A DNA stretch of 64,000 bases from positions 1,860,001 through 1,924,000 of the forward strand of contig NZ_OW968402.1 of assembly GCF_943169825.2 (NCBI RefSeq), written 5' to 3'. The translations under genes and the position numbers were made by a program. Shown here piece by piece: positions 7,979 to 28,743 of the stretch; position 1 is the stretch's first letter, and the number at the start of each line of letters is the position of its first letter. Under the pieces are notes generated by a model. That model made no database searches. It saw nothing but the letters and a program-made list of their open reading frames with translations, and was not told where the DNA came from. The stretch is from Varibaculum prostatecancerukia (GTDB taxonomy: Bacteria; Actinomycetota; Actinomycetes; Actinomycetales; Actinomycetaceae).

Positions 7979-9483
7979 CTATTTTCCCTGTATTTTAGCT
8001 ATTTCCTTAGCTTCCAGCCCAAAATCTTTGCTAACCGCATAGATTTTGATATCCGCACCTTTGGGAACCTCGGCTTCTGGAAGGTAGAACCGATATCCAA
8101 AGTCATTAACGATTCGGTGAGAATCGTTAATAACCGACCGTCTGTATCCACGGTAATCGCGCACCTGGGAGTCCTTCCCCGGCATCGTCACCCTCGCAAA
8201 CACTTCTACATCAGCTTGACGATACCGGGCGGGAATAGTTCCATCGATCACCTTAAATATTCCGTTTTTCTTGAAACTAGCCTTGGTCTTACCTGCGGTG
8301 TCAATCAATTTATAGGGAGCAAGCGTACTCGGAGGGCTAGTCATCGCCGGCGGATCCGTAGCGAAAAATGGAATCAACCTTTCGGCTCGCTCTACCACCA
8401 AGATGTCTGGTTCTAAGGAAAAAGCGTAGGTAGCATCGTAGGGAATCAGCTTGGAATAGTGGGCACTAGCGAAACTCGGGGAAAGCACCGGTACCAGTGA
8501 GTTGCCGAAAGAGTCTCGGAACATAAAAAGATCCTCTTTCCCCTGCCCCCTCGTTTCGAAAAGATCCGCGGTGGTATCCGGCTTATCACCCAGGTACCTC
8601 CAGAGATTACCTTGGAAATCCTGGAGGTCATTTATTCCTTCCGCCCGCCAGTTCGGTTCGCTCACCGTGGAGGTAGGATCCTGCATCCTCTCGATGTCAC
8701 CTACGAATCCTTCACCCAGTTTCCATTGTGGATTTTTAGCCAGGTTCTCCACCTGCAACTGGTCTAGCAGATAGTCGGCACCGCTATATGCTCCCTTGTA
8801 ACTCCAGTGAGTGTCGGTTTTTTGATAAAGAACTTCCTTACTGCTTTTCAGCTTTTTCGTGAGATCCACGTAGGGAACGCCCAGGGAACCTAATCTGTTC
8901 TGCAAACGGTTTAGATTAGATTGCTCAAAATTTCCTGCCCGGTAACGACTGGGCATGAATTGCCCATAAAGGGTGTTCTTATTGGGCGCTAACGCCACCG
9001 CAAACTTGATGCCCTGCGCCTGCGCCTGGTCACCCAGAATCTTTAGGTTGGTGGCCGCATTGTCGATTCCGCGCGAAGAAAGTCGATTTACTCCCCGATA
9101 GTCATCGAGCGAATCTGCGTAAAACAGGTAACCATTTTTACCAATAACTACCTGATCGGTAAGTGCGGACGAGAATATCCCGCTTTTCAAGGTGCCGGCA
9201 GCTGCGATCATTTCCCCTCTAAAAGGAAAAGTTTTTTCCAGGTAAGTGCCGGCATCTTGTAAATAGTTGACATTTAACTCTCCGGAAGACTTAGTTAGGG
9301 AGGGCGCCGCAACCTTTGCTTCTTGCGAGGGCTCTTGCCATTTTTTATAGGGAGCAGGTGTGAAACTGCGGGAATCAACATCAGGCACAAACCAAGGGTC
9401 ACAAAGGTTAGCATTAGGCTGCTCTTTGCCCACCGCGCTACCGAGGCATTTTTTTCCTCGGATGAACCGTTGTTTTCAGTCAT
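7979..9483 (-). CDS. DHHW/AlgJ-type polysaccharide O-acetyltransferase, needs -1 frameshift
   Basis: The main frame (7979-9433) carries a SGNH-like catalytic domain: VIGKNGYLFY, ALAPNKNTLYGQFMP, the signature DTHWSYKG and RDSFGNSL. This is the AlgJ/AlgX-related family that moves acetyl groups to exported glycans together with an MBOAT partner, which is the next gene upstream. The cytoplasmic tail and membrane anchor (SLMLTFVTLGLCLMLIPAVS) lie in another frame, starting at ATG 9483 behind AGGAAG. The two frames join exactly by a -1 shift at A AAA AAT (9346-9340), giving about 500 residues. Whether this is programmed slippage, on/off variation of an A-run, a fixed mutation or a sequencing error cannot be told here. 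Confidence 0.8.
9340..9346 (-). other. Putative -1 frameshift slip site A_AAA_AAT
   Basis: On the minus strand the N-terminal frame reads CCT ATA AAA AAT GGC. Slipping back one base on the six-A run moves translation to AAA AAA TGG CAA, the frame of the catalytic domain. This is the X XXY YYZ geometry of bacterial -1 sites. One extra A in the run would also restore the frame. I see no obvious stimulatory Shine-Dalgarno upstream. Confidence 0.5.
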
Positions 9484-9501
9484 AGTTACTTCCTGCACCT
9501 C

Positions 9502-10959
9502 CTAGAACCTGAAATAAATGAAGGGGTGGTAGCCGCCGGCTGCCAAGATCAGCAGGTTAGCTGCTAGCAGCACCAGGGTTAGACCCAGGCTCCACACTCG
9601 GGTATCTACAGTAGCCGGCATATAGGTCGAGGAAGGGTTAGTGACCCCCATTTTCTTCCATAGTTTTGCTTGCGGAGACAGGACTTGAGTAACCGGAAGC
9701 ATAGCAATCAGAGCTATGGAGAAAATAGTTAGAGTCCATGGGTCTAGGTAGGAGAACGCCAGGGATCCGGCTCCCACGGTGGATTCGGTGTTGAAACCAA
9801 ACATATTCGCGTACATTTGCAGAGCTTGGGTAAAGCTATCTGCTCTGAACACTACGAACGATGCTACCACCACGAACATGGTGTAGAGGTGACCGGCCCA
9901 GTGCGGAAGTTTCTTCAGGGGCACTATTTCTTCGAGCATTAAAAATATCCCGTGGATTAACCCCCAGACCACGAAGGTCCAGGCGGCACCGTGCCACAGA
10001 CCGCAGAGCAGGAACACCGTGAACTTGTTTATAACTGTTCGCGCTTCGCCTTTGCGATTTCCGCCCAGGGGAATATAGAGGTATTCCAGGAACCAGGTGG
10101 ATAAGGAAATATGCCAACGACGCCAAAACTCTTGCATGGTGCGAGAGATATAGGGGTAGGTGAAGTTTTCTTGGAATCGGAAACCGAACATCGCTGCCAT
10201 GCCGATGGCCATATCGGAGTAGCCGGAAAAATCGAAATAAATCTGGAGAGCGTAGCAGATAGCCGCTAACCAGGCTGCGTAAAAATCTACTTCCCCGGAT
10301 TGGTTTCCATAGATCCCATCGACTACTACCGCCAAAGAATCAGCGACTATCACCTTTTTACTAAGCCCGACTACGAATCTGCGCATCCCACAAGCCACTC
10401 CGTTCAAAGTGAATGAACGCTGCGCAATCTGTTCTTCGATGTGCCGGTAACGCACGATTGGTCCCGCAATAAGTTGCGGGAAGAACGAGATATAGAGCAT
10501 CACCACGAAGGGATCCCGGGCGGCGGAGATTTTCCCGCGATACACATCTATTACGTAGGAGAGCGCCTGGAAGGTATAAAAAGATATCCCGATCGGTAAG
10601 GCTACTGCCCCGATTTTCAGGTCGAGCCCTAGCAAGGAATCGATGGTTCCTACAAACATCCCTGCGTATTTGAAGAACCCTAGCACTCCTAGGTTGAGAA
10701 CTAGCGCCAGCGTCAAGATGGCTTTTCGCCCTGCCGACGCTGCGTCCTCTTTCCTGGTGTCCAGTGCTAATGCCAGAGCCCAGTTCGCTAGACAGGAAAC
10801 CAGCATTAACAGCACATAGATGGGTTCCCCGTAGGAATAGAACAGGAGGCTGGCTAATATCAGCACTGCATTCTTTCCCCTTACCGACGGAATTATCAGC
10901 GTGAGGATAAAAACCGTCGGTAAGAAGAAAGATATGAAGAGGACAGTGCTAAAGACCAC
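9502..10959 (-). CDS. MBOAT-family acetyltransferase (AlgI/PatA-like)
   Basis: 485-residue polytopic membrane protein of the MBOAT family. These proteins pass acetyl groups from cytoplasmic acetyl-CoA across the membrane. Visible: the N-terminal helix FLPTVFILTLIIPSVRGK, GISFYTFQALSYVIDVYRGK, the conserved FPQLIAGPIVRY, FDFSGYSDMAIGMA, FWRRWHISLSTWF, and the catalytic histidine block LWHGAAWTFVVWGLIHG. It starts at GTG 10959 overlapping the TAG of the upstream gene, so it is coupled to it; the DHHW acetyltransferase follows after about 18 bp. The three genes look like one operon for acetylating a wall or surface glycan. Confidence 0.93.
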   Translation of the reverse strand: MVFSTVLFISFFLPTVFILTLIIPSVRGKNAVLILASLLFYSYGEPIYVLLMLVSCLANWALALALDTRKEDAASAGRKAILTLALVLNLGVLGFFKYAGMFVGTIDSLLGLDLKIGAVALPIGISFYTFQALSYVIDVYRGKISAARDPFVVMLYISFFPQLIAGPIVRYRHIEEQIAQRSFTLNGVACGMRRFVVGLSKKVIVADSLAVVVDGIYGNQSGEVDFYAAWLAAICYALQIYFDFSGYSDMAIGMAAMFGFRFQENFTYPYISRTMQEFWRRWHISLSTWFLEYLYIPLGGNRKGEARTVINKFTVFLLCGLWHGAAWTFVVWGLIHGIFLMLEEIVPLKKLPHWAGHLYTMFVVVASFVVFRADSFTQALQMYANMFGFNTESTVGAGSLAFSYLDPWTLTIFSIALIAMLPVTQVLSPQAKLWKKMGVTNPSSTYMPATVDTRVWSLGLTLVLLAANLLILAAGGYHPFIYFRF

Positions 10960-12698
10960 TAGTTAAGGGCTCTCTTATTGGCATCCCAGTAGTAGATCGG
11001 AGCGTTCCAGTAGGTCTTGTAGTAGAACGCCCAGCCACCTTTGGAACTCTTGTAGGCCATGTCTTCGTCGGTATCGAAAATATAGGTTGTGCCCGAAACA
11101 TCGATTTCATTCCAGCCGTGGGGAGCTCGCGCGTTCGCCACGTATCCGAGGCGGACTCTCGCTGATGGATACCCTAGCGCCCGGGCTATCCACTTGTAAC
11201 CGGCGGCAAAGCTGTAACAGTTGCCCCCACCGTTGGCGAAGAAATTCTTGGCGTATTGGATATCCCAGTTGCTTCCCCACGGATGTGACTTCCCGTGCGC
11301 ACCAATATAGTGATAGTTGTTTACCACATAGGCATAGGATTTGTAGAGGGAGTCATAGCGCCCAACTATGGACTCTAAGGTGGCGTCTAATTGAGCATCA
11401 CCCGAGCCAACGTAGTTAAAGTACATTCCCTTGGCTCGTAATGCCCTCACCGTCGAGTAACCAACTTTTCCATCAGGGTAAATACCATTGGCTCTCTGGA
11501 ATGTCTTAACACAGTTTTCCGTCATCCGTCCGAACCATCTGTCCGGTGTGAATTTACAGTAGGACGGATTCAGATAGGTGAGCGCTGTTTGCAACACTTC
11601 TACTTTATAACCGCTGGAACCATAGCCCATAACACTGATGTAGTTGACAGGCGGAATTATCCATACTGGTATTCCCGCTGCCCGCAGAGCTTTCGCGGTT
11701 GTCATCCCTACGCCCCCGTCTGGATAAATTCCGTGATCCCTCTGGAAAGCCTTCACCGCTGCAGTAGTACGCGCCCCGAATATTGAGTCAGCGTGAACGC
11801 CTAGGTATTGCGGGAAATACTTGTTTAAGCCCAATTGCAAATTTCTGGTAAAACTGCCACGCGATCCGGACCAGACGGTAGCTCTCCACCACTGCTGAGA
11901 GGGTGAAGGAGCTGCATAAATAGTGATAGGCACACCCCTGTCTTTACGCACGGCATCGGCAAACGCCTTATCTGCAATATTTGAATGAGATAGCCCTAGG
12001 TCGCCACGAATATCGGAAACGCATTTAGAGGTTGTTGCTCCAAAAAACGTGTCCACCCGCGGAATAACGCAATGCTCTGGATAAAATGCGGCTAGGTAAC
12101 CCTGCAAGCTCCGAACGATGGGGGTGTTTTGTTGCGGAACCAAATTAAAATTAGTGTTGATAGGGCTAGCAATCGCAGCTCTGATGCCCTGTTCTCTGAA
12201 CTTGGCCGCAGTAAGAAAACCATATACACCATCTGGCCTGCTAATACCAAGTTTTCTTTGTGCACAGTTTAAAGAAGCTTTAGTCTTTGCACCGAATATT
12301 CCGTCTGGCTTAAAAGATCCGCATTCTTTGAATTTCCCAACCAAGGTTTTTTGAAGATCTAACACTGCTTCCGAACGCATGCCCTGCCTTAGGAAGCTGC
12401 CGGAAATCACCGAGAATTGTTCTTCAGAGGCATCCGCTTCTTCCTCACTATCTTGAGATTGCCTAGAAGTAACTGTTTCACTTGGCGAACTGCTTTCATT
12501 TTGCGAATTGCTCACAGACGCATCTGGTGAAGCAGACGGATCCTGCTGACCACCTGCATTGTTCTCGGCCTCAGTTGTACTGCTTTCCGTATTCCCCTCA
12601 TTTGGAGCAGCGTATGCAGTCCCCTCTACTCCCCAGGATAATAAGAGAGCGAAGGTGGCTAACAGCCCCATTATCCGTTTTTGATTCCTGAGCAACAT
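10959..12698 (-). CDS. Secreted peptidoglycan-binding protein with transglutaminase-like domain
   Basis: 579 residues: a signal peptide (LLATFALLLSWGVEGTAYAA), an acidic Ser/Asn/Glu linker to about residue 95, four peptidoglycan-binding repeats of about 70-80 residues (each with a FGAKT-like core and GIYPDGGVG-like end, the second degenerate), and a C-terminal transglutaminase-like domain from about 440. Candidate triad: Cys in GGGNCYSFAAG, His in APHGWNEID, Asp in YIFDTDED. The repeats should hold it on the wall. The catalytic domain may cross-link, amidate or cleave peptide bonds; its substrate cannot be read from sequence. It heads the O-acetylation operon, so it may act on the same wall polymer. 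Confidence 0.85.
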   Translation of the reverse strand: MLLRNQKRIMGLLATFALLLSWGVEGTAYAAPNEGNTESSTTEAENNAGGQQDPSASPDASVSNSQNESSSPSETVTSRQSQDSEEEADASEEQFSVISGSFLRQGMRSEAVLDLQKTLVGKFKECGSFKPDGIFGAKTKASLNCAQRKLGISRPDGVYGFLTAAKFREQGIRAAIASPINTNFNLVPQQNTPIVRSLQGYLAAFYPEHCVIPRVDTFFGATTSKCVSDIRGDLGLSHSNIADKAFADAVRKDRGVPITIYAAPSPSQQWWRATVWSGSRGSFTRNLQLGLNKYFPQYLGVHADSIFGARTTAAVKAFQRDHGIYPDGGVGMTTAKALRAAGIPVWIIPPVNYISVMGYGSSGYKVEVLQTALTYLNPSYCKFTPDRWFGRMTENCVKTFQRANGIYPDGKVGYSTVRALRAKGMYFNYVGSGDAQLDATLESIVGRYDSLYKSYAYVVNNYHYIGAHGKSHPWGSNWDIQYAKNFFANGGGNCYSFAAGYKWIARALGYPSARVRLGYVANARAPHGWNEIDVSGTTYIFDTDEDMAYKSSKGGWAFYYKTYWNAPIYYWDANKRALN

Positions 12699-12783
12699 GT
12701 GTTTCGCCTCTTCATTTCTCTGCAGAGATGCTATTACAGTGAATAAGATTGTATCTAATTAAAAATCTTAAATCCACTATTAC

Positions 12784-13857
12784 CTATTGAGAGTAGAACT
12801 TCATTATTTTTTCTGCGCTGTCTAACCCCACATCCTTGAGATTCAAGCGTTCTACCGCGGGATCCATAAGTTCAAATGCCCACGAAAGCGTGGCGTCAAT
12901 ATTTGGAGTAGCGACCCCTATAAGTTTGCCAAGCTGGGCAATCTGAGAAAGTCCAAACGCTATATCTTCCTTAAAATAGCGCGATGAATAGTTCAAGCGA
13001 TACCCTTCACCATCTGCAATCATAGGAGAACCGATACCTTTGAATGCAGTAATTCCCCTAATCTTAGCGGTGAGTTCATCCTGGTTACGAGATTCGTAGT
13101 AGGCAGTTAAAGAAGGGACTAAATCCCCACCCACACTGGCGTATCCTCGTGCAACTTCCACAAGTTCTGTGTTCATCTTGAAAAAATAGTCCGAAGCTTT
13201 ACTACCCCAACCTTCATAGAAGGGAATATTTTCAGAAAAAGTGTTCCCCGGATTTTGCTCCGTAATTTCACGCAACCGAGATGAATGCAATATGGGATTG
13301 GACGCACCCAAAGAAATAGGCAGATACGTGGGCATCGTGCGCACAGGAACATGGAATAGTTCCTGCAGCAAATCACGCGCTCCTGCCTGTCTGGTCAGCT
13401 CAGCTGCTACCAGTTCTTTCTTTACACCTGAAAGCACTGCGCGATCGCCGTAACCAAATGAGCGGGAAATGAACATTACCCGCTGAAGACCAACTACGGC
13501 TGCCCCCTGTGCGAGCACCGGGTTAACAGTAAATTCTCGAGCACCATTGCCTGGAGATAACACAATGGTGTGCCTTTCGGCGAGGGCGTGTTGAGCACGA
13601 TTAAAGAAATCCTGCACTGCATAGACAGGAAGTGTCACTATGATGACATCGGAAAAATCGATAAGTTCAGCGGGATTGGAAGTTACAAACGCTAAATTTG
13701 CGGTGTACTCCTGCGAAGAAACCAAATCATGCACGTGTACTCGAGGTTTCCATTTAGCTGCTTGCCGGGTGTAAAGGGCAGTTTCATGCCCATGCCGCGC
13801 CAGGTAGCCTGCATAGACCGCCCCAGTATGGCCGCCTCCAACAATTCCAATGCGCAT
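12784..13857 (-). CDS. Opine/octopine dehydrogenase-like NAD(P) oxidoreductase
   Basis: 357 residues with an N-terminal Rossmann motif GIVGGGHTGAVYAGYLARHG and an IIVTLPVYAVQDF strand, followed by an all-helical C-terminal domain as in octopine/nopaline dehydrogenases and ketopantoate reductases. Enzymes of this family reductively join an amino compound to a 2-oxo acid. It starts four bases after the stop of the nucleotidyltransferase-PLP fusion gene, strongly suggesting a shared pathway. In this setting it could make an N-carboxyalkyl amino alcohol or amino acid that decorates the surface glycan; that is inference. Confidence 0.75.
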   Translation of the reverse strand: MRIGIVGGGHTGAVYAGYLARHGHETALYTRQAAKWKPRVHVHDLVSSQEYTANLAFVTSNPAELIDFSDVIIVTLPVYAVQDFFNRAQHALAERHTIVLSPGNGAREFTVNPVLAQGAAVVGLQRVMFISRSFGYGDRAVLSGVKKELVAAELTRQAGARDLLQELFHVPVRTMPTYLPISLGASNPILHSSRLREITEQNPGNTFSENIPFYEGWGSKASDYFFKMNTELVEVARGYASVGGDLVPSLTAYYESRNQDELTAKIRGITAFKGIGSPMIADGEGYRLNYSSRYFKEDIAFGLSQIAQLGKLIGVATPNIDATLSWAFELMDPAVERLNLKDVGLDSAEKIMKFYSQ

Positions 13858-13860
13858 CGG

Positions 13861-15693
13861 TTAAGCTATTCCTCCTAATACTTCCAGCAAGCGGGCATTG
13901 TCCTGGGTGGAACGAACCGCTAGCCGAATATATTGCTTACCGTCAAAACCCTCTTTTTCGGAAAGATCTTTTATGATCAGATCGTTTTCCAGACAGGCAA
14001 TAGTAAGTTCCTTTGAGCTGTGGGGAGCCAGCACCTCCGCGGTTACAAAGTTGGCTTGTGAAGGAATCACTCGCAGATAGCTAAGCTGGTTCAGATCTTC
14101 TACGAACTGCGCCCTCACCGCTTTTATTTTTTCTAAGGCAGCTGCGTAATCTTTCTGGTATTTTTCTTCTATTTGCAGATAGAACTCGGCAAAAGAGTTT
14201 ATGTTCCAGATCGACACGTCTTTCTTGAAACCTGTGATAGCTGCAGTATCCGAGCTCGCTAAGATTCCCAGACGCAAACCGGCAACCCCGTAACTCTTGG
14301 AAATGGATTTCATAATGAACAGGTGCGGATGGGAATCCAGGATTTCCTGGCTTAGCAGTGAATTGTCTTGACCTTCAGCAAAATCAATGAAACTTTCGTC
14401 AAGAACTAGAGTTATCCCGTTTTCTTCTGCCCAATCTGCCAGGCGGAGTGCATCTGCCTGGGGGATGAAGTTACCCGAAGGATTGTCAGGGTTAATCACA
14501 ATCAGAGCTTTTACCCGCTCTCCGCTGTCGGTTTTACCTTGTTCACTGCGTCCGAAAAACTCTATTAAGTCATCTGCGGTGTAGGAAAAATCCGGATTAT
14601 CTGCCTGGTAAATAACCGGTTTTTCCGGGCAGCGATTGGGGTATTCCTCGAAGGTGGGTCTAACTACTCCGTAGGGCATCGGCAGCTGCGCCATTAGAGA
14701 TTTAATTAGCTCTGCTGCCCCGTTCCCAACCACTACTTGTTCAGGCCGTAAAGCAAAATTCTTGGCCGCCAGTAAAGAGTTAACCCCCATACCAGAAGGG
14801 TAATCGGCCAGCAAGGAATCAAAGTTCGCTCGGATCTCGTCCTTCATCCGTTGCGGAGGGAAATAGGGATTGACCAGATAGCAGTAGTCCAGCATCTTGG
14901 GGTAACGCCAATATCCGCCGTAGCGGGATTCAAATAGTTTCTTGCGCTGGGCGGTATCGGGATGGAATATCGAGGATGCAATATCTAGATCCTGTACATC
15001 ATCAATCTCGTACCACTTTTGCCCATCTAGGCGTTTGGCTTTTATTCCCGGATCATCCAGGAGAGTAATAACCCGCAAGACCTGTTCATAGTATTCATTG
15101 CGCCCCAGCGCCTGAGTATAGGCATCTAAGAAGGGAACATAATGCGTGGTAGAGAATTCTTTAGAGAACTTATAAATATTTACCGTCTTGTAGTAAGAAT
15201 CTATGTCCCGATAAACAAATTTCTTGCCGGGGACGAAAGCAGAAATAGTGTCATCGTCATCGAGCTTGACGACCGTGCCATCCATCCAGGACTCGTATTT
15301 ATCAACTAGCGCTAAAGTTTTCCGGGGATCATCAAGAAGATCGTCTAGTACCCTATCTTCGAAAATCAGATCCGACTCTAGCAGCAGGGTGTCCTCTTCT
15401 AACAGCTTATCTTTGGCCAACCACAAAGAGTAGATGTTATTGGTCTGATCATAAATCGGGTTATCGACGAACTCTATTGGGGTAGAAATATCTAAGGTTT
15501 CAATATAGTCAATGAGCTTTTGGCCTTCGTAACCAGTCACAATAACTATTTTCGAAAGTGCCTTAGCGTCAAGCTGATGCAGCATCCGCTCAATCATGGT
15601 TACCCCATTGACTTTCACCATGCACTTGGTGTTGTTTGCAGTGAGATCTTTAAGACGGGATCCCATTCCTGCCGCCAAAATAAGTGCCTGCAT
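13861..15693 (-). CDS. Fusion: sugar-type nucleotidyltransferase + class I/II PLP enzyme
   Basis: 610 residues. Residues 1 to about 240 are a LicC-like nucleotidyltransferase: LILAAGMGSRLKDLTANNTK for nucleotide binding, then LLLESDLIFE with the metal aspartate. From about 265 there is a PLP-dependent fold-type I enzyme related to histidinol-phosphate aminotransferase and threonine-phosphate decarboxylase (CobD): GNGAAELIKSL, NPDNPSGNF, LDESFIDFAEG, and the Schiff-base lysine in KSISKSYGVAGLRLG. Such a fusion could make a phospho-amine or phospho-amino acid and activate it with CTP. LicD transferases at 18639 and 27701 are natural recipients. The exact substrate is unknown; phosphocholine, phosphoethanolamine, phosphoserine or a phosphonate are all possible. 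Confidence 0.85.
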   Translation of the reverse strand: MQALILAAGMGSRLKDLTANNTKCMVKVNGVTMIERMLHQLDAKALSKIVIVTGYEGQKLIDYIETLDISTPIEFVDNPIYDQTNNIYSLWLAKDKLLEEDTLLLESDLIFEDRVLDDLLDDPRKTLALVDKYESWMDGTVVKLDDDDTISAFVPGKKFVYRDIDSYYKTVNIYKFSKEFSTTHYVPFLDAYTQALGRNEYYEQVLRVITLLDDPGIKAKRLDGQKWYEIDDVQDLDIASSIFHPDTAQRKKLFESRYGGYWRYPKMLDYCYLVNPYFPPQRMKDEIRANFDSLLADYPSGMGVNSLLAAKNFALRPEQVVVGNGAAELIKSLMAQLPMPYGVVRPTFEEYPNRCPEKPVIYQADNPDFSYTADDLIEFFGRSEQGKTDSGERVKALIVINPDNPSGNFIPQADALRLADWAEENGITLVLDESFIDFAEGQDNSLLSQEILDSHPHLFIMKSISKSYGVAGLRLGILASSDTAAITGFKKDVSIWNINSFAEFYLQIEEKYQKDYAAALEKIKAVRAQFVEDLNQLSYLRVIPSQANFVTAEVLAPHSSKELTIACLENDLIIKDLSEKEGFDGKQYIRLAVRSTQDNARLLEVLGGIA

Positions 15694-18638: not shown

Positions 18639-19334
18639 ATGATTGCAAGCGTGAAACGTTGGCTTCGTACCTCCCGATTAACTCGCGACCTCTACCAACG
18701 CCTATACGATGTCAAGCATCAGCGGGAAGAACGTTTAGCAAATGCGGCCCTCAAAAACGATGGCGCTGAAGTACTGGCCGACTTCCAAGCTCTGATGCAA
18801 AAACTCGGTGCCGAATGGTACTTAGCATATGGGACCTGCCTAGGCGCCCTCCGTAATCATCAGTTCATATCCCATGATCTAGATATGGATTTTTATCTAT
18901 GCCCTAAGCTCGGAGTCGGGATCGAAGAAGTTAAGAACGCACTTTCTGCAGCCGGCTATCGCCACCACCACGATTACGAAGTGGAGGGAAAGACTGCAGA
19001 ATGCAGCTGGGAACGGAATGGGGTCAATTTTGACATTTTTGTTCTCGAAGAGAAACCAGAGGGATATGGGTGCTATTTATTTAATCGTTTCCCTGATAGT
19101 TCTTACAGTCACGAGCACGAATTTTCTGTGAGCTTGAGTATGGCCCCACATATCACCGACAAACGTGAGATAGACCTTGCGGGAGTTACAGTTCCCATAC
19201 CTGCAAACGCCGAAGATTTTATGAAACTTTACTACGGTGAAAATTGGATAGTCCCCGACCCCAGCTACACTTGGGAAAACGCGCTCCCTTCGCGGAAACG
19301 ATGCGCTAAGCGAGGATACTATAGACAGTACTGA
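18639..19334 (+). CDS. LicD-family phosphotransferase
   Basis: 231 residues of the LicD nucleotidyltransferase-like fold. Seen: the helix YLAYGTCLGALRNHQFISHD followed by the metal-binding LDMDFYL, then a second acidic strand VNFDIFVLE. LicD proteins move phosphocholine or similar groups from a CDP carrier to a surface glycan. The likely donor in this locus is made by the nucleotidyltransferase-PLP fusion. Followed at 30 bp by a glycosyltransferase gene on the same strand. Confidence 0.85.
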   Translation: MIASVKRWLRTSRLTRDLYQRLYDVKHQREERLANAALKNDGAEVLADFQALMQKLGAEWYLAYGTCLGALRNHQFISHDLDMDFYLCPKLGVGIEEVKNALSAAGYRHHHDYEVEGKTAECSWERNGVNFDIFVLEEKPEGYGCYLFNRFPDSSYSHEHEFSVSLSMAPHITDKREIDLAGVTVPIPANAEDFMKLYYGENWIVPDPSYTWENALPSRKRCAKRGYYRQY

Positions 19335-19363: not shown

Positions 19364-20416
19364 ATGAAAACTTTTGAGTCTCTCAGTAGCCCCCATATAT
19401 CTGTGGGCATTGTTGCTCTAGATGAAGAGGATTATCTTCCCGATATGCTCTCTTGCATCAAGGCTCAAGACTACCCACACCATCTTATCCAGGTGGTGCT
19501 GGTAGATAGCGGATCTGAAGATGCCACCCCCCGGATTATGAAGGACTTTGCCACGCGGGCAACCGACTTTGAATCCGTGGTGCTGCTCCATAACCCAGGA
19601 AAGACCGTGCCGAAAGGATGGAACGTCTTTCTTGCCGCCGCAACCGGAGATGTAATCGTTAGGGTAGACGCTCACGCTCGCATTCCAGATAATTTTTTGA
19701 GCCAAATCATAGCGGTCTTGCGTGAAGATGAAGCAGTAGCTGGTGGCCCGCGCCCCACGATCACCCCTAATAGTGCCACCGACTGGCAACGAGTATTGCA
19801 TACCGTCGAAGAATCTATGTTCGGGGCTTCGATCGCGAAATATCGAGGTAAGTCAAAATCCGACTCTAACGCACCTCAGTACGTAAAATCAGTATTCCAC
19901 CCAGGATACCGCCGCTCGGTGATAGATAAAGTGGGTCCCTTTAACGAGGAGCTTACCCGCACCGAAGACAACGACTACTCCTACCGGATTCGTAAAGCCG
20001 GTTATAAGATTCGTTTTGATTCCCGGATCTATTCTGAGCAAATAATTCGTCCTTCACTGTTTGCCATGATTAGGCAAAAATACAATAACGGCTATTGGAT
20101 AGGTAGGACTCTTTTCGTACAACCCGGATGTATCGAGGTGTATCACCTGGTGCCGGGAGCTTTTGTTTTAGCTATTGCCGCGGGATTCGCACTGCGGCTA
20201 CGGGGAGTTAAGCTGCCGCTGCGGCTGCTAGCCGCCAGCTATGGAACCGCCGATCTGGCTTTAAGCGCGGCATCGTTTCCGAAAGTTGACCCGCCCACCA
20301 GTAAAGCTGCCAGCTTACCCTTGATTTTCCCCGCCCTCCATATTGCCTATGGCATCGGCACTTGGAAGGGAATAATAGAGGGACTAAAAGAGACATTCCA
20401 AGGAGGGCGAGGGTGA
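19364..20416 (+). CDS. Family 2 glycosyltransferase with membrane tail
   Basis: 350 residues. GT-A fold of the ExoA/succinoglycan type: ISVGIVALDEEDYLPDMLSC at the N-terminus, LVDSGSEDATP, the metal site RVDAHARIP and the acceptor-side ED in TRTEDNDYSYRIRKAG. A short hydrophobic region follows (GAFVLAIAAGFALRLRG and onward), so it is membrane-associated. AGGAAG precedes the ATG at 19364. Its stop overlaps the next start as GTGA. Confidence 0.9.
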   Translation: MKTFESLSSPHISVGIVALDEEDYLPDMLSCIKAQDYPHHLIQVVLVDSGSEDATPRIMKDFATRATDFESVVLLHNPGKTVPKGWNVFLAAATGDVIVRVDAHARIPDNFLSQIIAVLREDEAVAGGPRPTITPNSATDWQRVLHTVEESMFGASIAKYRGKSKSDSNAPQYVKSVFHPGYRRSVIDKVGPFNEELTRTEDNDYSYRIRKAGYKIRFDSRIYSEQIIRPSLFAMIRQKYNNGYWIGRTLFVQPGCIEVYHLVPGAFVLAIAAGFALRLRGVKLPLRLLAASYGTADLALSAASFPKVDPPTSKAASLPLIFPALHIAYGIGTWKGIIEGLKETFQGGRG

Positions 20417-21108
20417 ATCTTGATTCCCTGCACGACTTGAAAAGTAAGCTGCAGCTGCGCTGGCATTTATATAAAAACCGACAGCTTTTGAATCGGGAAG
20501 TAACCATTATTTCCAATAACTGTATTGCGGGGGTCATATATCATGATTGCGGTTTACGATTTCTTTCCCCTACTGTGAACCTTTGGTTTCCGACTGAAGA
20601 TTTTTTCACCTACGCGGCCAACCTCCTTGAGTACTCCCCACAACAGGGAGCAGAACTACGTGAGATTTTTGAGGAGGGAATCAGTTACCCCCTGGGGTTA
20701 CTAACTCCAAAATCTGCGGATCTGCCCGCGATAAAGCTTTACTTTCAGCATTACCCCAGCTTTGAACTTGCCAAAGAAAAATGGGAGCAGCGTTCAAGGC
20801 GAATAAACTTGGAAAACATTTGTATGATTTTTGAGTGTTCGCAACCCATTGCCGAAAACAGCCCTATTCCAGAGCTTTTTCGCGCGGCTCCCTATTCCCA
20901 TAAAGTTATAGTTACCAGTAAGCATTCGGTAACTGGCGCAGGCACTGAAGTTGTACATCTTCCGGTATATGACTTGCCAGGGTATCAGCCGGGAAAGCTT
21001 TTCACCACCAAAAGTAAACTGTCTTTATCCCGGTGGCTTGATGATTTCAATTATGTAGAGTTTTTAAATCGCACTAAAGGAAAGCTGCTTCCCGCGATAC
21101 TCAAGTAG
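20413..21108 (+). CDS. DUF1919 polysaccharide-biosynthesis protein
   Basis: 231 residues from the GTG at 20413, chosen over the longer frame from 20362 because AGGAGG (20401-20406) sits six bases upstream and the GTGA overlaps the preceding stop. The N-terminal signature VTIISNNCIAGVIYHDCGLR and FLSPTVNLWFPTEDF are diagnostic of DUF1919, a family found in exopolysaccharide clusters whose biochemical role is unsettled. Translationally coupled to the upstream glycosyltransferase. Confidence 0.8.
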   Translation: MNLDSLHDLKSKLQLRWHLYKNRQLLNREVTIISNNCIAGVIYHDCGLRFLSPTVNLWFPTEDFFTYAANLLEYSPQQGAELREIFEEGISYPLGLLTPKSADLPAIKLYFQHYPSFELAKEKWEQRSRRINLENICMIFECSQPIAENSPIPELFRAAPYSHKVIVTSKHSVTGAGTEVVHLPVYDLPGYQPGKLFTTKSKLSLSRWLDDFNYVEFLNRTKGKLLPAILK

Positions 21109-21275: not shown

Positions 21276-22403
21276 TTAAGCTTTACGTTCGTTAAGTATC
21301 AATTTTTGATAGCGATTTACAAGTAACTGCGAGGCTTGCCTAATATCGAAACCCTTCTGGGCAACTAGCTTATCTGCCCCTTCTAAACGATTTGTCGGCA
21401 GGGATAGGACAGTTTCCGCCCAACGATCCGGCGGGTCACCTAAGCCCTGCTGCCGATAGCTAGGAAGAATTCTAGCTTCCGCCGGTACCTGGCTACTCGC
21501 CAGACAAGGCAGACCATTGGTCTGTGCTTCTACCAGCACAATCCCAAAGCCTTCATGGAGAGAAGGCAAACAGAAACTATCCATGGCGCTTAGAAGCGCG
21601 CCTATATCTGTACGAAGACCCGCAAAATGCACCGAATCTGCAATCCCAAGTTTCTTAACTCGGGTCTCAACTGCGGGACGCAGAGCGCCACCTTCACCCA
21701 CTAAGAGGAGACATGCATCGGGGCGGCGCCGCTTTACCTCAGCAAAGACCTGCACTAATAATTCATGGTTCTTCAGGGCTACGAAGCGCCCTATATGTCC
21801 GAGCACAAAAGCATCCGGGGAAATGTTGAACTCGCTTCGCACTTCCGCTCTTTGTTGGGGGTTAAATAAGAAATGCTCCAAACTGATTGCGTTATTGATT
21901 ACTGTGAATGAGGCAGTAGAAGTTATGCGTTTACCAAAAGCCGCGTTTCCCGCTGCTATGGAAGCTGCCCAAAAGTCAGTAGCCAGATAGGGCAGGGAAC
22001 GATAGAGTAACCAGTTTCGTACACTGCCTATTAGGTGCTCAGAATATTTTTCGGAATGACTATGCGCGATTCGCACCTTCACTCCATATTTTTTTGCAAG
22101 CGTGAAAATCACCGGATTCAAATAAAGATCGTGAAGTTGCACCGCATCATATTCACCAACGTGAGCCCGGAAAAAATCCTCGACCGCTTTCCAATACTGC
22201 GGGAATCCCCTAAGCCCAGGTTCGGGGGTCAGAAATACCCTCCCCCCGAGTTCTTCGATTTCCGCCCGAAAGGTGTAGTCATTTTCCCAGAACACCAGGA
22301 AATCAAAGGTAACTTCTTTGGCAATGTGACGATAGTAATTCATCATCGCTTGTGCTACCCCAGAAACCTGAGCGCACGAAGCCATCACCTGTAAGACTCT
22401 CAC
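21276..22403 (-). CDS. GT4-type glycosyltransferase (EpsF-like)
   Basis: 375 residues, two Rossmann domains. Seen: VSGVAQAMMNYYRHIA in the acceptor domain, YDAVQLHDLYLNP, FVLGHIGRFVALKNHE at the domain boundary, VGEGGALRP, and the donor-site glutamate motif SLHEGFGIVLVEAQTNG. It probably adds one sugar to the lipid-linked repeat unit on the cytoplasmic side. Convergent with the DUF1919 gene across 167 bp in which I see no feature, and 24 bp downstream of the polymerase/ligase gene. Confidence 0.9.
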   Translation of the reverse strand: MRVLQVMASCAQVSGVAQAMMNYYRHIAKEVTFDFLVFWENDYTFRAEIEELGGRVFLTPEPGLRGFPQYWKAVEDFFRAHVGEYDAVQLHDLYLNPVIFTLAKKYGVKVRIAHSHSEKYSEHLIGSVRNWLLYRSLPYLATDFWAASIAAGNAAFGKRITSTASFTVINNAISLEHFLFNPQQRAEVRSEFNISPDAFVLGHIGRFVALKNHELLVQVFAEVKRRRPDACLLLVGEGGALRPAVETRVKKLGIADSVHFAGLRTDIGALLSAMDSFCLPSLHEGFGIVLVEAQTNGLPCLASSQVPAEARILPSYRQQGLGDPPDRWAETVLSLPTNRLEGADKLVAQKGFDIRQASQLLVNRYQKLILNERKA

Positions 22404-22427: not shown

Positions 22428-23972
22428 TTAGTTCCCGGAAACCAGTTTTGTTTCCCGCAGCGTAATCACTGGAATTCTCATCGGCTCGGAGTCGGGACGG
22501 GCTATTAAATAACCCATGATAATCAGCAAAATCCCGAACATGTAATCTAAGCCTAGGAATGAATCAGTCAGGAACATAACTCCGCTCATTATCGTCAGCC
22601 AGGCCGCGCCCAAGAAGAAATCGGACCAATCGGGGTGACGCAGCTTTATCGCTTTTCCATAGCTAACCAGACATCCCAAGAAAAACACCAGGTAGATCCC
22701 AAATCCGAGAGCTCCGTAGCTGATTAAAACATCAAGATAGGAGTTGTGCACGTGATAGCCCCGCTCCAATAATTTCTGCTCAGCGCGTAGTTTCTCCGCT
22801 TTCGCGTATTCATCAGTGTTGTAGGGGCCAATACCGACTACCGGGTGCCCTTTCCAAAGCTCGAGGGTTTCTTCCCAGATGTAAATGCGCGCTGATTTAG
22901 TGGAATCTCCTTTATTTACGCGAAGCATACTCACGTCATCTGCCATCTTCCAATCAGAACTGGTTTTCTTAGATCCGGCAGGGTGAATTAGTTCAAAAAC
23001 TTGAGTGTAATAGGAAATTTCTCCCTCCACCAGGGCATCTATATTGGCATTAACCGTGGTGTAGCCAAAACCCCCGATAAGGATTACCCACACCACCAGC
23101 AGAGCTTTCGCTTTTTTCTGTAGATACTCACTGCGCCGGTAATAAAACACGAAAAGGCAAAGACCGGCCACTGCCAGGGTGATTAATAGGGATAAACGGG
23201 CTCCTCGAGAATTGCAACCAACGGTAGCGATAACTACCAGAACTAGATTTATCCAATACAAAATTCGGTATCTTATTTTACCGCGCGCGGTAAGGAAGAT
23301 CTTTTCCTGATAAATCAACGCCCAGGTAGTAACAAAGATACTCACTATTCCAGCGAGTGCAGCGTGATTCGAATCCACATTCATTCCGAAAACGATGAAT
23401 ACTCGATTCCCGGAACCATAGGTCAAAGATTGCACCCCAAGACGGCGCATGGCGCCCGCTAGTTCACCTAGGAAAGTAAAACCCAAGGCAATCATTGCGA
23501 CCGAAGTAAGCGCCTGTAAACCAGTTATTATCTGTGCGGGCAGCAATACTTTAGCCAGCTCTCTATGGGGTTTGGAGCTGCGCGCTATATAGGCTCCCAG
23601 CGGATAAACTAATAACACCGAAACTGCAAGCAGGATTCCGGATTTAATTTGAGTTACCGGATTTACCGCATAGTTTAGGGCTAAGGTAACTACCGCGGCA
23701 GGCAGCAGCAACCCCAGCACTTTTATCCAAGGGGTTTTAAAGTAGGAGCGATCCTTTAATAAATAATAAAGAATCAAGGCATATGCCCAGAACAAAAGCA
23801 AATACTGTATCGACCCGAGGAACTCGCCTAAAATTACAACTTGCCGCAACACAAGATAAACCAGGTAGACACTCACGCAGTAAACCGGATTCAGCAGGAC
23901 ACTGAAGAGCTTGCGCGCTTGCTTTGGCGCCGTAGGGGTCACAGTTTCATCACTTACTACTGCTTCATTCAC
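22428..23972 (-). CDS. O-antigen ligase/polymerase-like membrane protein (Wzy_C)
   Basis: 514 residues with about a dozen hydrophobic segments and a large external loop (about 330-400). The loop carries the Wzy_C-type signature HPVVGIGPYNTDEY and HNSYLDVLISYGALGFG, as in O-antigen ligases and capsule polymerases. With the Wzx-type flippase at 25290 this suggests a Wzx/Wzy route for a surface polysaccharide. It is divergent from the glycosyltransferase at 24091. Confidence 0.85.
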   Translation of the reverse strand: MNEAVVSDETVTPTAPKQARKLFSVLLNPVYCVSVYLVYLVLRQVVILGEFLGSIQYLLLFWAYALILYYLLKDRSYFKTPWIKVLGLLLPAAVVTLALNYAVNPVTQIKSGILLAVSVLLVYPLGAYIARSSKPHRELAKVLLPAQIITGLQALTSVAMIALGFTFLGELAGAMRRLGVQSLTYGSGNRVFIVFGMNVDSNHAALAGIVSIFVTTWALIYQEKIFLTARGKIRYRILYWINLVLVVIATVGCNSRGARLSLLITLAVAGLCLFVFYYRRSEYLQKKAKALLVVWVILIGGFGYTTVNANIDALVEGEISYYTQVFELIHPAGSKKTSSDWKMADDVSMLRVNKGDSTKSARIYIWEETLELWKGHPVVGIGPYNTDEYAKAEKLRAEQKLLERGYHVHNSYLDVLISYGALGFGIYLVFFLGCLVSYGKAIKLRHPDWSDFFLGAAWLTIMSGVMFLTDSFLGLDYMFGILLIIMGYLIARPDSEPMRIPVITLRETKLVSGN

Positions 23973-24090: not shown

Positions 24091-25092
24091 ATGAGGCTAA
24101 GCGTAATCATTCCTTATTATAATTCAGCAGAATTCTTACCGCGTCTGGAAAAAACTTTATCTAACCAGATAAACCCCCGGGGAGAAGCAGAGACTGAAGT
24201 TGAAGTCATTGTGGTTGATGATGCCTCTCGCCAAGCAGATCAGACTCTGCTAGCTGAGGTCTCGGCTAGAAATAACTGGCAGCTAGTGACCCTAACTGAA
24301 AACCTGGGACCTGGAGGGGCGCGCAATGCCGGAATCTCTGCTGCCAGTGGCGACTACTTAGTGTTTTTAGACTCCGACGATGAGCTCATCCCCGGCTCCC
24401 TGGAAATACTTGCGGATGCGTTGAGTAAAACGCCTTGTGACGTATTGCTTTTCGACTTCAGTATTATCGACGAGGGAAAAGCACACGATTATACCGTTCT
24501 TCCCGAACCCCCGGCACAGCTTGATTACGTTAGTACCGACTATGCGCTGGCCTTCGCGCGGGGAGGAACCTGCGGGAAAGTCTATCGCCGCGATTTTGTT
24601 CGTGAGCACGACCTGGGGTTCGGAACCGGCGTCCGGCATGAAGATACAGTGCTTACCAAAACCGCACTGGCTTGGGCGGAAAAAGTCGCTTATCTGCCCC
24701 AGAGTCTTTACCGCTACCAGGTCCACGCAGGGTCTTTGATTGCTGATGATTCTAATGCTTCCCTTTCTGCCTCCTTTGAGGCCTTAGAGCAGATCCGCAA
24801 GCTTAGCGCGGACAGGCATCCTCAAGAAATTGAATACGTCTATATTGTCGAAGTAATCATTTCCTGCGCGATGAAATTCTATCCCTTAAAAGTAACCCGC
24901 AGTCAGGCGCGAAAACTATTCTTACGCTTTGTCGCAGACTATCCTAACTGGGCAAAGAATCCTTACCTGCAGAAAGGCGGAATCCGTTACCGCTTATATG
25001 CCGCTTTAGCTCAGCACCACTCCTTTCTCGGTTTATTTACACTTTCCTACGTAGAAACCGTGATGCGAAAAATTCTAGGTCGGGGACACTGA
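24091..25092 (+). CDS. Family 2 glycosyltransferase
   Basis: 333 residues, GT-A fold: LSVIIPYYNSAEFLPRLEKT, VIVVDDASRQADQTLL, ENLGPGGARNAGISAASGDY, and the metal site FLDSDDELIPGSL. The acceptor side shows GVRHEDTVLTKTAL. It resembles WaaB/CpsJ-type enzymes of capsule clusters. No membrane segment is clear. The donor and acceptor sugars cannot be read. Confidence 0.9.
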   Translation: MRLSVIIPYYNSAEFLPRLEKTLSNQINPRGEAETEVEVIVVDDASRQADQTLLAEVSARNNWQLVTLTENLGPGGARNAGISAASGDYLVFLDSDDELIPGSLEILADALSKTPCDVLLFDFSIIDEGKAHDYTVLPEPPAQLDYVSTDYALAFARGGTCGKVYRRDFVREHDLGFGTGVRHEDTVLTKTALAWAEKVAYLPQSLYRYQVHAGSLIADDSNASLSASFEALEQIRKLSADRHPQEIEYVYIVEVIISCAMKFYPLKVTRSQARKLFLRFVADYPNWAKNPYLQKGGIRYRLYAALAQHHSFLGLFTLSYVETVMRKILGRGH

Positions 25093-25289
25093 CTCCCTCC
25101 CTATCTGGAGCACTTTTAGGACGGAAGCCAGAAACGAAGAAGCAGGCTCCCCCCTAAGAAACCTAGTTGCTATCTCCGTTTCGGGTAACAATAACTATGC
25201 CTCTCTAGCGGTTTGTCCGTTACTAGATATTGATTTACCATGCTTTACTTGTAGACGTTAAGTCTAACGCAGTGAATCTAAGGAGAAGC

Positions 25290-26696: not shown

Positions 26697-27686
26697 TTAC
26701 TTTAAGCGCAAGGCGATTCCATAAATAAACGTGGCTACCGCGATAGTTATGCGTGCCGTCACTACCGTGGCAGCATCTATTTTCCGCAGTCCTTTTAGAG
26801 GTATCCGTCTAGCCAGTTTCTGCACTCGTTTTTTCAAAGAACGGTAGCGGGGATCTTGGCGGTAACTAGGATCGGCGGAGTACTCCACCAGGCAGTTGAT
26901 CCCGGCTTTAAACGCTGCCAGGAGCGCGAGTTTCGCTTGCGGGAGGTGTAGATCGCTCAACAACCTATAGTGTTCTTCGTAAAAATCAATCCCGTCTCTA
27001 TGTTTCCAGGAGGGAGTAGCCATTATTGAGGACTCGTTACAACGATAGTGATAAAGCGGTGCGCGAGTGAGCGCAACCCGTTCAGACTGTAGCAACACCG
27101 GAAGCGCTACCGCTACGTCCTCGTGGAGACGTCCTTCAGGAAAATGCAGATTTTTATAGATTCGCCGCGGATACAGTTTAGATACTGCCACCGTAAGCTG
27201 CTGTAAGAGCAGTCCCCCATACAGCTGCGTTATCGCTTCATTCTGGGAATATAGGCGCCAATTCGCTTCTTGAGCAGGCTGACTCATGGAGTACAGCTCG
27301 CGATCGTCAGAAAATCTAGCCAGCCCACATACCGCTAAATCAGCTTGCAGCTTTGAAATCCCTTCCATCAGTAGCCGCACAAAATCTGGATGCAAGGAAT
27401 CATCGGAATCAACAAAGCAAAGATAATCCCCATGCGCCCGCGCTAAACCAAAATTTCGCGCGCTAGAAAGTCCCCCATTGGGTTTACTGACTACTTCCAG
27501 TCGCGGATCAGCGTAACTTTCTGCTATCGCCAGTGAACCATCGGGGGAACCATCATTTACCACGATTACCTGCAAATTTTTGTAGCTCTGCGCTAACACG
27601 GAATCAAGACAGATACGCAGATATTTTTCTACGTTATAAACCGGAATAACCACAGAAACTAGCGGCTCACTGCTGTCATGCTGCAT
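26697..27686 (-). CDS. Family 2 glycosyltransferase
   Basis: 329 residues of the WaaB/EpsJ-like group: VSVVIPVYNVEKYLRICLDS, VIVVNDGSPDGSLAIAESYA, GGLSSARNFGLARAHGDYLC, metal site FVDSDDSLHPDFV, and LHEDVAVALPVLL near the acceptor site. The C-terminus ends with a hydrophobic segment (VVTARITIAVATFIYGIALR). Convergent with the flippase gene and 14 bp downstream of a LicD gene. Confidence 0.9.
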   Translation of the reverse strand: MQHDSSEPLVSVVIPVYNVEKYLRICLDSVLAQSYKNLQVIVVNDGSPDGSLAIAESYADPRLEVVSKPNGGLSSARNFGLARAHGDYLCFVDSDDSLHPDFVRLLMEGISKLQADLAVCGLARFSDDRELYSMSQPAQEANWRLYSQNEAITQLYGGLLLQQLTVAVSKLYPRRIYKNLHFPEGRLHEDVAVALPVLLQSERVALTRAPLYHYRCNESSIMATPSWKHRDGIDFYEEHYRLLSDLHLPQAKLALLAAFKAGINCLVEYSADPSYRQDPRYRSLKKRVQKLARRIPLKGLRKIDAATVVTARITIAVATFIYGIALRLK

Positions 27687-28627: not shown

Positions 28628-28743
28628 CTCTCCATCCTCCTTGATTATTTTCAGTAATCTCGATTCCCGATTGCGCCCTGCCGGTCGCTCATCCATCCTG
28701 GGAAAACAGATACTTAACTTTAAGTTATCCTATCTATCTGCGA

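Follow-up and report, generated by a model that had tools for sequence, protein, structure and literature searches.

What is made by a protein in which a LicC-like nucleotidyltransferase is joined to a PLP enzyme of the CobD/HisC type, and what is the role of the opine dehydrogenase encoded directly after it? The question is raised by two adjacent genes in the 64,000-nucleotide stretch of the Varibaculum prostatecancerukia genome analysed here, called the window. A preliminary description of this DNA had suggested that, together with LicD transferases, the two proteins could build a phospho-amine or phospho-amino acid, N-alkylate it and attach it to a glycan. The reading that we favour, at a probability of roughly 55%, is that the pair is a donor module by which a surface polysaccharide becomes decorated with an N-modified ethanolamine phosphate.

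The gene pair sits in a Wzx/Wzy-type surface-polysaccharide cluster (Table 1). Both open reading frames are intact and lie on the minus strand, and three bases, not four as first described, separate the stop codon of the fusion from the ATG of the dehydrogenase, whose ribosome-binding-like site is found within the terminal part of the fusion gene. At an E value of 0.01, the whole genome has no LicD matches other than two proteins of this cluster. They had been described as two LicD transferases, and both indeed match the family, although the smaller one only in part.

Table 1. Features of the window, with strand and the basis of each assignment.
Feature	Position	Strand	Basis
AlgX-like SGNH protein	7979..9433	-	model match
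MBOAT acyltransferase, below DltB cut-off	9502..10959	-	model match
Peptidoglycan-binding repeats and transglutaminase-like core, 3' of the dehydrogenase, same strand	10959..12698	-	model match
Segment without DNA match in relative L016 (OCD/mu-crystallin gene in slot)	11828..13875	.	DNA comparison
Opine-dehydrogenase-family protein, 357 aa	12784..13857	-	Octopine_DH model, alignment, predicted fold
LicC/PntC-like cytidylyltransferase and CobD-like PLP enzyme fusion, 610 aa	13861..15693	-	models, PDB matches
AGGAGG, ribosome-binding-like site for the dehydrogenase, within the end of the fusion gene	13871..13876	-	sequence
Small LicD-like protein, partial match	18639..19334	+	31.7 bits, cut-off 22.6, 31 residues matched
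GT2 glycosyltransferase	19364..20416	+	model match
DUF1919 protein	20362..21108	+	model match
GT4-type glycosyltransferase	21276..22403	-	model match
Wzy_C/O-antigen-ligase-family polymerase or ligase	22428..23972	-	model match
GT2 glycosyltransferase	24091..25092	+	model match
Wzx-like polysaccharide flippase (Polysacc_synt)	25230..26678	+	model match
GT2 glycosyltransferase	26697..27686	-	model match
LicD-family transferase, full-length match	27701..28696	-	PF04991, 111.5 bits
Nucleotide-sugar dehydratase (Polysacc_synt_2 family)	28744..30585	-	model match
DegT-family sugar aminotransferase	30693..31910	+	model match
Initiating sugar-phosphate transferase (Bac_transf)	31910..32533	+	model match

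The fusion of a LicC-like domain with a CobD/HisC-like PLP enzyme, recognised already in the preliminary description, is confirmed by profile searches, in which residues 3-122 match NTP transferase models and residues 311-605 match Aminotran_1_2, and by PDB matches; the LicC/PntC-like half spans ca residues 1-250 and the CobD-like half ca 255-610. The best PDB matches of the first half are PntC and LicC, the PntC of a phosphonate cluster having the top score and the LicC relationship being seen in the match to 1jyk (E = 1.2e-14), while those of the second half are chains that are CobD-like or named HisC. The predicted structure of the whole fusion (ten sequences, mean pLDDT 71.3, pTM 0.48) was too poor for structure searching. 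Mapping by sequence alignment places Glu106 and Glu203 of the first half at the amine-side positions, which are occupied by Glu104 and Glu196 in PntC and by Asp in LicC (D105 and D192 according to PMC6697681); neither position of the fusion carries the LicC-type Asp. These glutamates favour the earlier suggestion that the substituent may not be phosphocholine, which is, however, weakened by a second LicC-like protein elsewhere in the genome (see below).

For the PLP half, the CobD model TIGR01140 is the best one, with 165.7 bits against 139.6 bits for the HisC model, but the score is below the cut-off of 290.55, and the half is thus CobD-like and not CobD itself. The closest solved structure is 6oux, listed as threonine-phosphate-decarboxylase-like, which we take to be active on serine phosphate; it is followed by 3ftb, named as a histidinol-phosphate aminotransferase, and by CobD 1lc5. 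Lys466 of the fusion, invariant in all ten sequences compared, aligns to K216 of 1lc5, presumably the PLP-binding lysine. Judged by these resemblances, the PLP half probably acts as a decarboxylase. Since its nearest relatives are CobD-like phosphate decarboxylases, a phospho-amine is the likelier of the two products first envisaged, and a phospho-amino acid the less likely.

Another option is that the PLP half acts as an aminotransferase and yields a different phospho-amine; one candidate is serinol phosphate, made from dihydroxyacetone phosphate. The dehydrogenase would N-alkylate the phospho-amine so formed, and the LicC and LicD enzymes would activate and attach it. HisC aminotransferase models also match this half, histidinol-phosphate aminotransferase is the name carried by most of its PDB matches, among them the second-best, and Cj1437 of a Campylobacter capsule cluster, described beside Cj1436, makes serinol phosphate. 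We nevertheless consider this unlikely, given the order of the two models and the first and third places of 6oux and 1lc5 among the chains, and because a relative of the dehydrogenase occurs in a 2-aminoethylphosphonate operon (see below), which points to an aminoethyl group.

The assignment of the neighbouring protein as opine-dehydrogenase-like has held up well: the protein is full length and matches Octopine_DH (PF02317) with 84.8 bits against a cut-off of 30. Its predicted structure (pLDDT 93.4) aligns with 1bg6 over 332 residues (Z 38.4, rmsd 2.1), and the best 12 rows of the structure comparison are all opine dehydrogenases. His191 and Asp298, conserved without exception in the 24 relatives aligned, correspond to H202 and D297 of 1bg6, which we take to be the catalytic His and Asp. 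From its family, the enzyme is predicted to join an amine and a 2-oxo acid in an NAD(P)H-dependent reaction. The fold (Z 37.3-38.4) and the catalytic His/Asp columns are common to octopine dehydrogenase and N-(1-D-carboxyethyl)-L-norvaline dehydrogenase, whereas the identity to them is only ca 21-22%. In sequence alignments, Arg194 and Lys265 are invariant in the group of the present dehydrogenase and stand opposite no basic residue in either known enzyme; the expected substrate of the Varibaculum enzyme is an amine phosphate, while that of the other two is an amino acid.

In the mechanism that we propose, the substrates, the acceptor and the order of N-alkylation and CTP activation are all predictions. 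The CobD-like half would decarboxylate O-phosphoserine to ethanolamine phosphate; a precedent is the decarboxylation of serine phosphate in a capsule cluster by Cj1436, as given in PMC12409886. The LicC-like half would then use CTP to convert ethanolamine phosphate to CDP-ethanolamine, or to an N-modified form of it. The dehydrogenase would condense a 2-oxo acid, in the simplest case pyruvate, with the primary amine and reduce the imine with NAD(P)H, yielding N-(1-carboxyalkyl)ethanolamine phosphate, and this N-carboxyalkylation could take place before or after the activation. Finally, a LicD protein would transfer the N-modified ethanolamine phosphate to a sugar.

The neighbourhood of the fusion is conserved in other bacteria. 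A gene-neighbourhood survey, called for in the preliminary description, finds the fusion, the dehydrogenase (or an unrelated ornithine-cyclodeaminase/mu-crystallin protein, OCD) and LicD together far beyond this genome, and the pair is common to other genera, many gut bacteria included. When neighbours are counted over all open reading frames at 80 named fusion loci, the dehydrogenase adjoins the fusion in 28, always on the same strand and at most 150 bases away, and OCD is the neighbour in 14; at 27 loci with both flanks complete, neither is present. The dehydrogenase is thus a recurrent partner of the fusion, but not an obligatory one. A search of those 27 genomes at E 1e-30 found no dehydrogenase elsewhere either, which indicates that N-alkylation is optional at most. 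Among 151 genomes of the family, the fusion is present in 8, the dehydrogenase in 2 and OCD in 3, and all five genomes with one of the latter belong to the eight with the fusion (Fisher p = 9e-8, relatedness ignored). In the class to which Mogibacterium timidum belongs, 12 of 391 genomes have the fusion, 8 the dehydrogenase and 4 both, adjacent in all four cases (p = 3.4e-5; with the centre genome, chosen for having both, left out, p = 5.5e-4).

In close relatives, the presumed nitrogen-altering enzyme is replaced by an unrelated one in the same slot. The L016 relative, in which the fusion protein is 98% identical and the flanks of the swapped segment are 91% identical in DNA, has the OCD gene there. 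OCD may carry out the corresponding reaction, in which the keto acid could be a different one or the stereochemistry opposite. Its best PDB matches are alanine dehydrogenases, all of them weak, and it may therefore aminate instead of N-alkylating.

The dehydrogenase follows a nucleotidyltransferase in two further settings. At locus L122 its gene and that of a LicC-kinase fusion overlap, and a weak LicD match is found on its other side. At L143 it shares an operon with genes for PEP mutase, phosphonopyruvate decarboxylase and 2-aminoethylphosphonate aminotransferase, three assignments above the NCBIfam cut-offs, and with LicC-like and LicD genes. The supply routes at these two loci and at the fusion loci share an aminoethyl phosphate or phosphonate, which is thus the likeliest amine of the dehydrogenase.

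These results also bear on the possibility that the fusion delivers plain CDP-ethanolamine to LicD, while the dehydrogenase creates an opine-type group elsewhere on the polysaccharide, on an amino-sugar or amino-acid substituent for instance. The 27 complete loci without either partner speak for this, and so do the amine-side Glu106 and Glu203, which do not vary between fusions that have the partner gene and those that lack it, as would fit the activation of unmodified ethanolamine phosphate; moreover, enterobacterial O-antigens carry (S)-1-carboxyethyl lysine and alanine derivatives, according to PMC10609480. The recurrence of the dehydrogenase behind the nucleotidyltransferase in all three supply routes, and its tight spacing in the 28 fusion loci, argue in the other direction, and we regard a separate target as improbable.

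Somewhat less probable still is that ordinary phosphocholine or phosphoethanolamine forms the substituent and that the pair of the window has only a side activity. The earlier statement that the choline kinase and transporter partners of LicC/LicD are missing holds for the window genes scanned, but not for the genome, which encodes at L112:8271-10079, outside the window, a 602-residue LicC/choline-kinase-like fusion with NTP transferase and choline-kinase domains, and an EamA transporter ca 4 kb from it. The choline route is thus missing only locally, and this protein could feed the same LicD enzymes, the only ones in the genome. However, a CobD-like domain would be superfluous for a choline route, N-alkylation is impossible on quaternary choline, and the pair recurs in other genera with its second gene exchanged at the same slot.

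The N-modified ethanolamine phosphate that we favour can be compared with the products of known systems. According to PMC6697681, the PntC-AEPT fusion of Treponema denticola (PDB 6PD1/6PD2) likewise joins a LicC-like cytidylyltransferase to a PLP enzyme, has Glu at both amine-side positions and clusters with LicD-like or glycosyltransferase genes, but its PLP part is a 2-aminoethylphosphonate transaminase, the chain being named class V, that works with PEP mutase. In our fusion, the second domain is not a class V transaminase but the CobD-like Aminotran_1_2 domain, and the genome has a single match to the PEP mutase family, an isocitrate lyase adjoining malate synthase (both named from sequence). 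A phosphonate decoration made by the module is therefore very improbable and this route is rejected for the present genome, despite the top score of the first half against PntC and the one dehydrogenase relative in a phosphonate operon. The LicC/LicD phosphocholine pathway has the cytidylyltransferase and LicD families in common with the Varibaculum cluster, whereas the pair here has no adjacent choline kinase or LicB, Glu for Asp at the amine side, and additional decarboxylase-like and dehydrogenase parts.

Cj1436 and Cj1437, which we take to belong to the CobD/HisC family, offer a parallel to the proposed role of the fusion. They make ethanolamine phosphate or a similar amine phosphate for the Campylobacter jejuni capsule, but in that system a further enzyme links the amine through an amide bond and the phosphate is cleaved off, unlike in our proposal. 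No opine dehydrogenase is known to take part in that route. The O-antigen of Proteus mirabilis O14 carries N-(1-carboxyethyl)ethanolamine phosphate, which is exactly the predicted product if the 2-oxo acid is pyruvate. Among the matches listed, a search of open-licence literature showed neither this substituent nor a paper in which opine dehydrogenases are connected to LicD or to the present fusion. In the two most pertinent listings, which covered 15 of 71 and 15 of 32 papers, the terms opine and octopine dehydrogenase are absent. The words opine, ethanolamine and decarboxylase do not occur in the main text of PMC5560731, on the Proteus O14 gene cluster.

The locus thus combines known enzyme families in a new, modular way. 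More tentatively, and at somewhat less than even odds, one can speculate that it represents a widespread class of decoration, in which an aminoethyl phosphate or phosphonate would be turned into an opine-like N-(1-carboxyalkyl) donor that is CDP- or CMP-activated and LicD-transferred. Three supply routes (phosphoserine decarboxylase fusion, kinase fusion and phosphonate operon) would then lead to one tailoring step, an exchangeable slot filled by two unrelated folds, and close relatives would consequently carry tags of different charge or stereochemistry. Phosphocholine and phosphoethanolamine tags govern how hosts, phages and wall-binding proteins recognise the bacterial surface. If our proposal is correct, the route is self-sufficient, with no need for external choline or ethanolamine, and its swappable step converts a positively charged amine to a zwitterion or an acid; it would also explain surface variation in host-associated bacteria that is masked by family names such as 'aminotransferase' and 'dehydrogenase'. 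Two genomes count against the reading that we favour: within the 16 kb read around the dehydrogenase of genome G879 (L146) there is no LicD or nucleotidyltransferase, and in genome G095 the fusion and the dehydrogenase are located at separate places.

The fusion and dehydrogenase genes lie in a genome of 2.21 Mb, assembled as a single contig. The preliminary description had the fusion followed four bases later by an opine dehydrogenase; both genes are there in this order, on the minus strand, and it is the gap that has to be corrected, to three bases. Among named organisms, Varibaculum vaginae has the closest relative of the fusion (93% identity), in a comparison from which the window's own genome was perhaps left out. 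Downstream of the dehydrogenase and on the same strand are genes for a peptidoglycan-binding/transglutaminase-like protein and for MBOAT and AlgX-like proteins, while to the right of the pair there are glycosyltransferases, a Wzy_C protein, a flippase, a LicD, a nucleotide-sugar dehydratase, a sugar aminotransferase and an initiating transferase. This is the gene content of a Wzx/Wzy-type polysaccharide cluster, and the two LicD matches of this region are the only ones in the whole genome at E 0.01. An MBOAT gene also lies near the pair at L027, a locus in another class, and at a further locus (L050) a gene near the pair clusters with the MBOAT gene of the window.

Coordinates of the features discussed (L-numbers denote loci outside the window; L112 is elsewhere in the same genome)
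Feature	Location	Strand	Description
Fusion	window 13861-15693	minus	610 aa; NTP transferase domain joined to aminotransferase-fold PLP domain
Dehydrogenase	window 12784-13857	minus	357 aa, Octopine_DH
AGGAGG	window 13871-13876		ahead of the dehydrogenase ATG
MBOAT and AlgX-like genes	window 7979-12698		after the dehydrogenase
Exchanged segment	window 11828-13875		no DNA match in L016
LicC-kinase protein	L112:8271-10079	minus	602 aa; winged-helix-looking start, LicC-like and choline-kinase-like domains; at ~1.30 Mb of the genome
EamA transporter	L112:3328-4224		~4 kb from the LicC-kinase protein
Separate LicC-like and CobD-like genes	L029:8099-11896		with CDP-alcohol phosphotransferase and methyltransferase
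CTP_transf_like-GFO_IDH_MocA protein	L147:9012-10352	plus	CTP_transf_like domain fused to oxidoreductase domain; beside OCD, dehydrogenase and LicD
~870-aa protein	L054:10715-13342		scanned: YidC-like (60KD_IMP) part and sulfatase-like part
Second opine dehydrogenase gene	L097:16339-17400		4.5 kb from the fusion, Mogibacterium timidum

The pair is real, non-random and wider in occurrence than the preliminary description could know; co-occurrence of the families beyond this genome was found in named loci and in family, phylum and class samples. At least 555 relatives of the fusion exist, the best 80 of which were kept for the neighbour count. These are mostly Clostridia MAGs, many from gut or rumen by their titles. 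The others include some Actinomycetaceae and a Coriobacteriaceae, as well as MAG contigs that bear the labels Akkermansia (two), Treponemataceae and Bacteroidales. Within 150 bases of the fusion and on the same strand, the dehydrogenase is found at 28 of the best 80 loci (21 downstream, 7 upstream) and OCD, an unrelated ornithine-cyclodeaminase/mu-crystallin protein, at 14 (13 downstream, 1 upstream), counts that are not fully independent since two loci (L031 and L036) are contigs of one MAG. OCD lies within 1.3 kb at two further loci. Neither partner is present at 27 loci whose flanks extend for at least 1.2 kb in each direction, nor at nine more with incomplete flanks, and a whole-genome search of the 27 at E 1e-30 gave no dehydrogenase of this kind. 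Only L073 has both families, with OCD as the direct neighbour and the dehydrogenase at a distance of 6.7 kb; the OCD matches there and at L082 and L094 are short or split ORFs.

In the family sample (151 genomes, apparently one same draw; E 1e-30 for the fusion, 1e-15 for the dehydrogenase and 1e-40 for OCD), the fusion was found in 8 genomes, the dehydrogenase in 2 and OCD in 3. All five genomes with either partner are among the 8 fusion carriers, compared to 0 of the 143 others (p 9e-8, kinship ignored). The remaining three carriers have neither partner, and one of them, G133, has the fusion at a contig edge. Four of 396 phylum genomes, one being the window's own, match the fusion at E 1e-40; in G292, from another class, a dehydrogenase (33% identical, L027) adjoins the fusion, and none adjoins it in G224 and G400. 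The class-wide sample of 391 genomes, centred on G546, which was picked for having both genes, gave 12 fusions (E 1e-150), 8 dehydrogenases (E 1e-60) and 4 genomes with both, always adjacent (p 3.4e-5, or 5.5e-4 without G546, kinship ignored). This survey overlaps with that of the named loci, because G546, G578 and apparently G766 contribute to the 80 loci and to the dehydrogenase profile as well. Within 1.5 kb of the 12 class fusions there are four dehydrogenases and three OCDs, one OCD being on the opposite strand (L151); one flank of the 12 loci is incomplete (L152). OCD occurs in 4 of 316 genomes (E 1e-60), twice with the fusion, once in the G722 cluster discussed below and once between two LicD genes (G836).

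The slot beside the fusion is exchanged between the dehydrogenase and OCD. L016, whose fusion protein is 98% identical, shares 91% DNA identity with the window on both flanks, and the segment without a match holds the dehydrogenase in the window and OCD in L016. L017 has the same pattern, with flanks 81-85% identical. Known members of both families reduce C=N bonds. OCD can be assigned a reaction with less certainty than the dehydrogenase, because its nearest NCBIfam models (pyrroline-carboxylate reductase, an OCD family model, archaeal alanine dehydrogenase, SbnB and iminosuccinate reductase) all match far under cut-off and its top PDB chains are alanine dehydrogenases.

For the dehydrogenase, H191 and D298 line up with the two catalytic residues in both octopine dehydrogenase and 1bg6, and are kept in 24 of 24 relatives. 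In a structure comparison of the predicted model (pLDDT 93.4), the first 12 rows are all opine dehydrogenases (Z 38.4 for 1bg6 and 37.3 for 3c7d), followed by ketopantoate reductases; Foldseek also has these opine dehydrogenases at the top. Arg194 and Lys265, which are invariant in the whole group and have no basic residue opposite them in the octopine dehydrogenase and 1bg6 alignments, might be phosphate ligands.

The PLP half of the fusion is best matched by the CobD model (165.7 bits, below the cut-off of 290.55), followed by HisC (139.6). Its best solved relatives are the threonine-phosphate-decarboxylase-like 6oux, presumably an L-serine phosphate decarboxylase, 3ftb, which bears the name histidinol-phosphate aminotransferase, and CobD 1lc5; HisC names are frequent among the others. 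The PLP lysine column, K466, is unchanged in 10 of 10 aligned proteins. PMC12409886 describes a capsule cluster with the serine phosphate decarboxylase Cj1436 and the serinol phosphate enzyme Cj1437. Conversion of phosphoserine to ethanolamine phosphate is the favoured prediction, because of the CobD-like matches, 6oux, the conserved lysine and the Cj1436 precedent; the rival reading is that the PLP half instead makes serinol phosphate. The LicC half comes about as close to Treponema denticola PntC (6pd1, 63.2 bits) as to the LicC of pneumococcus (1jyk, 57.7 bits). By alignment it carries Glu106 and Glu203, both unchanged in 10 of 10, at the amine-side positions that are Glu in PntC and Asp in LicC (PMC6697681), but as a pointer to substrate this pattern is suggestive only, since the same positions are Ser and Glu in two LicC-kinase proteins and Glu and Asp in the LicC of the phosphonate operon described below.

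The dehydrogenase also occurs with other supply genes. In G095 (L122), where dehydrogenase and fusion are on separate contigs, it overlaps an NTP transferase and kinase protein and precedes a weak LicD match. In G900 (L143) it is accompanied by a LicC-like gene, LicD and genes for PEP mutase, phosphonopyruvate decarboxylase and 2-aminoethylphosphonate aminotransferase, these last three all scoring above their NCBIfam cut-offs. At G722 (L147) it adjoins OCD, two LicD genes, a class V aminotransferase and a CTP_transf_like protein. In G665 it lies beside an apparent flippase (judged by eye) and its match contains one TGA; LicD and the fusion are absent from the 16 kb read. No setting of this kind surrounds it in G879. 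The simplest shared substrate would be an aminoethyl phosphate or phosphonate, either free or bound to CDP/CMP. In the window's own genome, choline or ethanolamine salvage may feed the LicD enzymes of the cluster, because the kinase part of the LicC-kinase protein at L112 matches a choline/ethanolamine kinase model.

As to the product, Proteus mirabilis O14 carries N-(1-carboxyethyl)ethanolamine phosphate, a precedent that was not found in the open-licence literature searched. PMC10609480 describes O-antigens in which lysine and alanine bear opine-type (S)-1-carboxyethyl groups. Each enzyme family is already known; no description of the combination, the three supply routes (decarboxylase-like fusion, LicC-kinase fusion and phosphonate operon) or the exchanged slot was found in that literature.

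At L028 (fusion 38-39% identical) a methyltransferase adjoins the fusion and two proteins cluster with LicD. The neighbours there and at L029, one example each, fit a nitrogen-modifying step or a lipid role for CDP-ethanolamine, and the L029 set may lead to ethanolamine or choline lipids. Two contigs of G034 (L020 and L021) have the same gene order and protein identities over ~19 kb, perhaps an assembly duplicate. Proteins of ~870 aa, some in tandem, lie beside the fusion in L054, L065, L072, L074, L078 and others.
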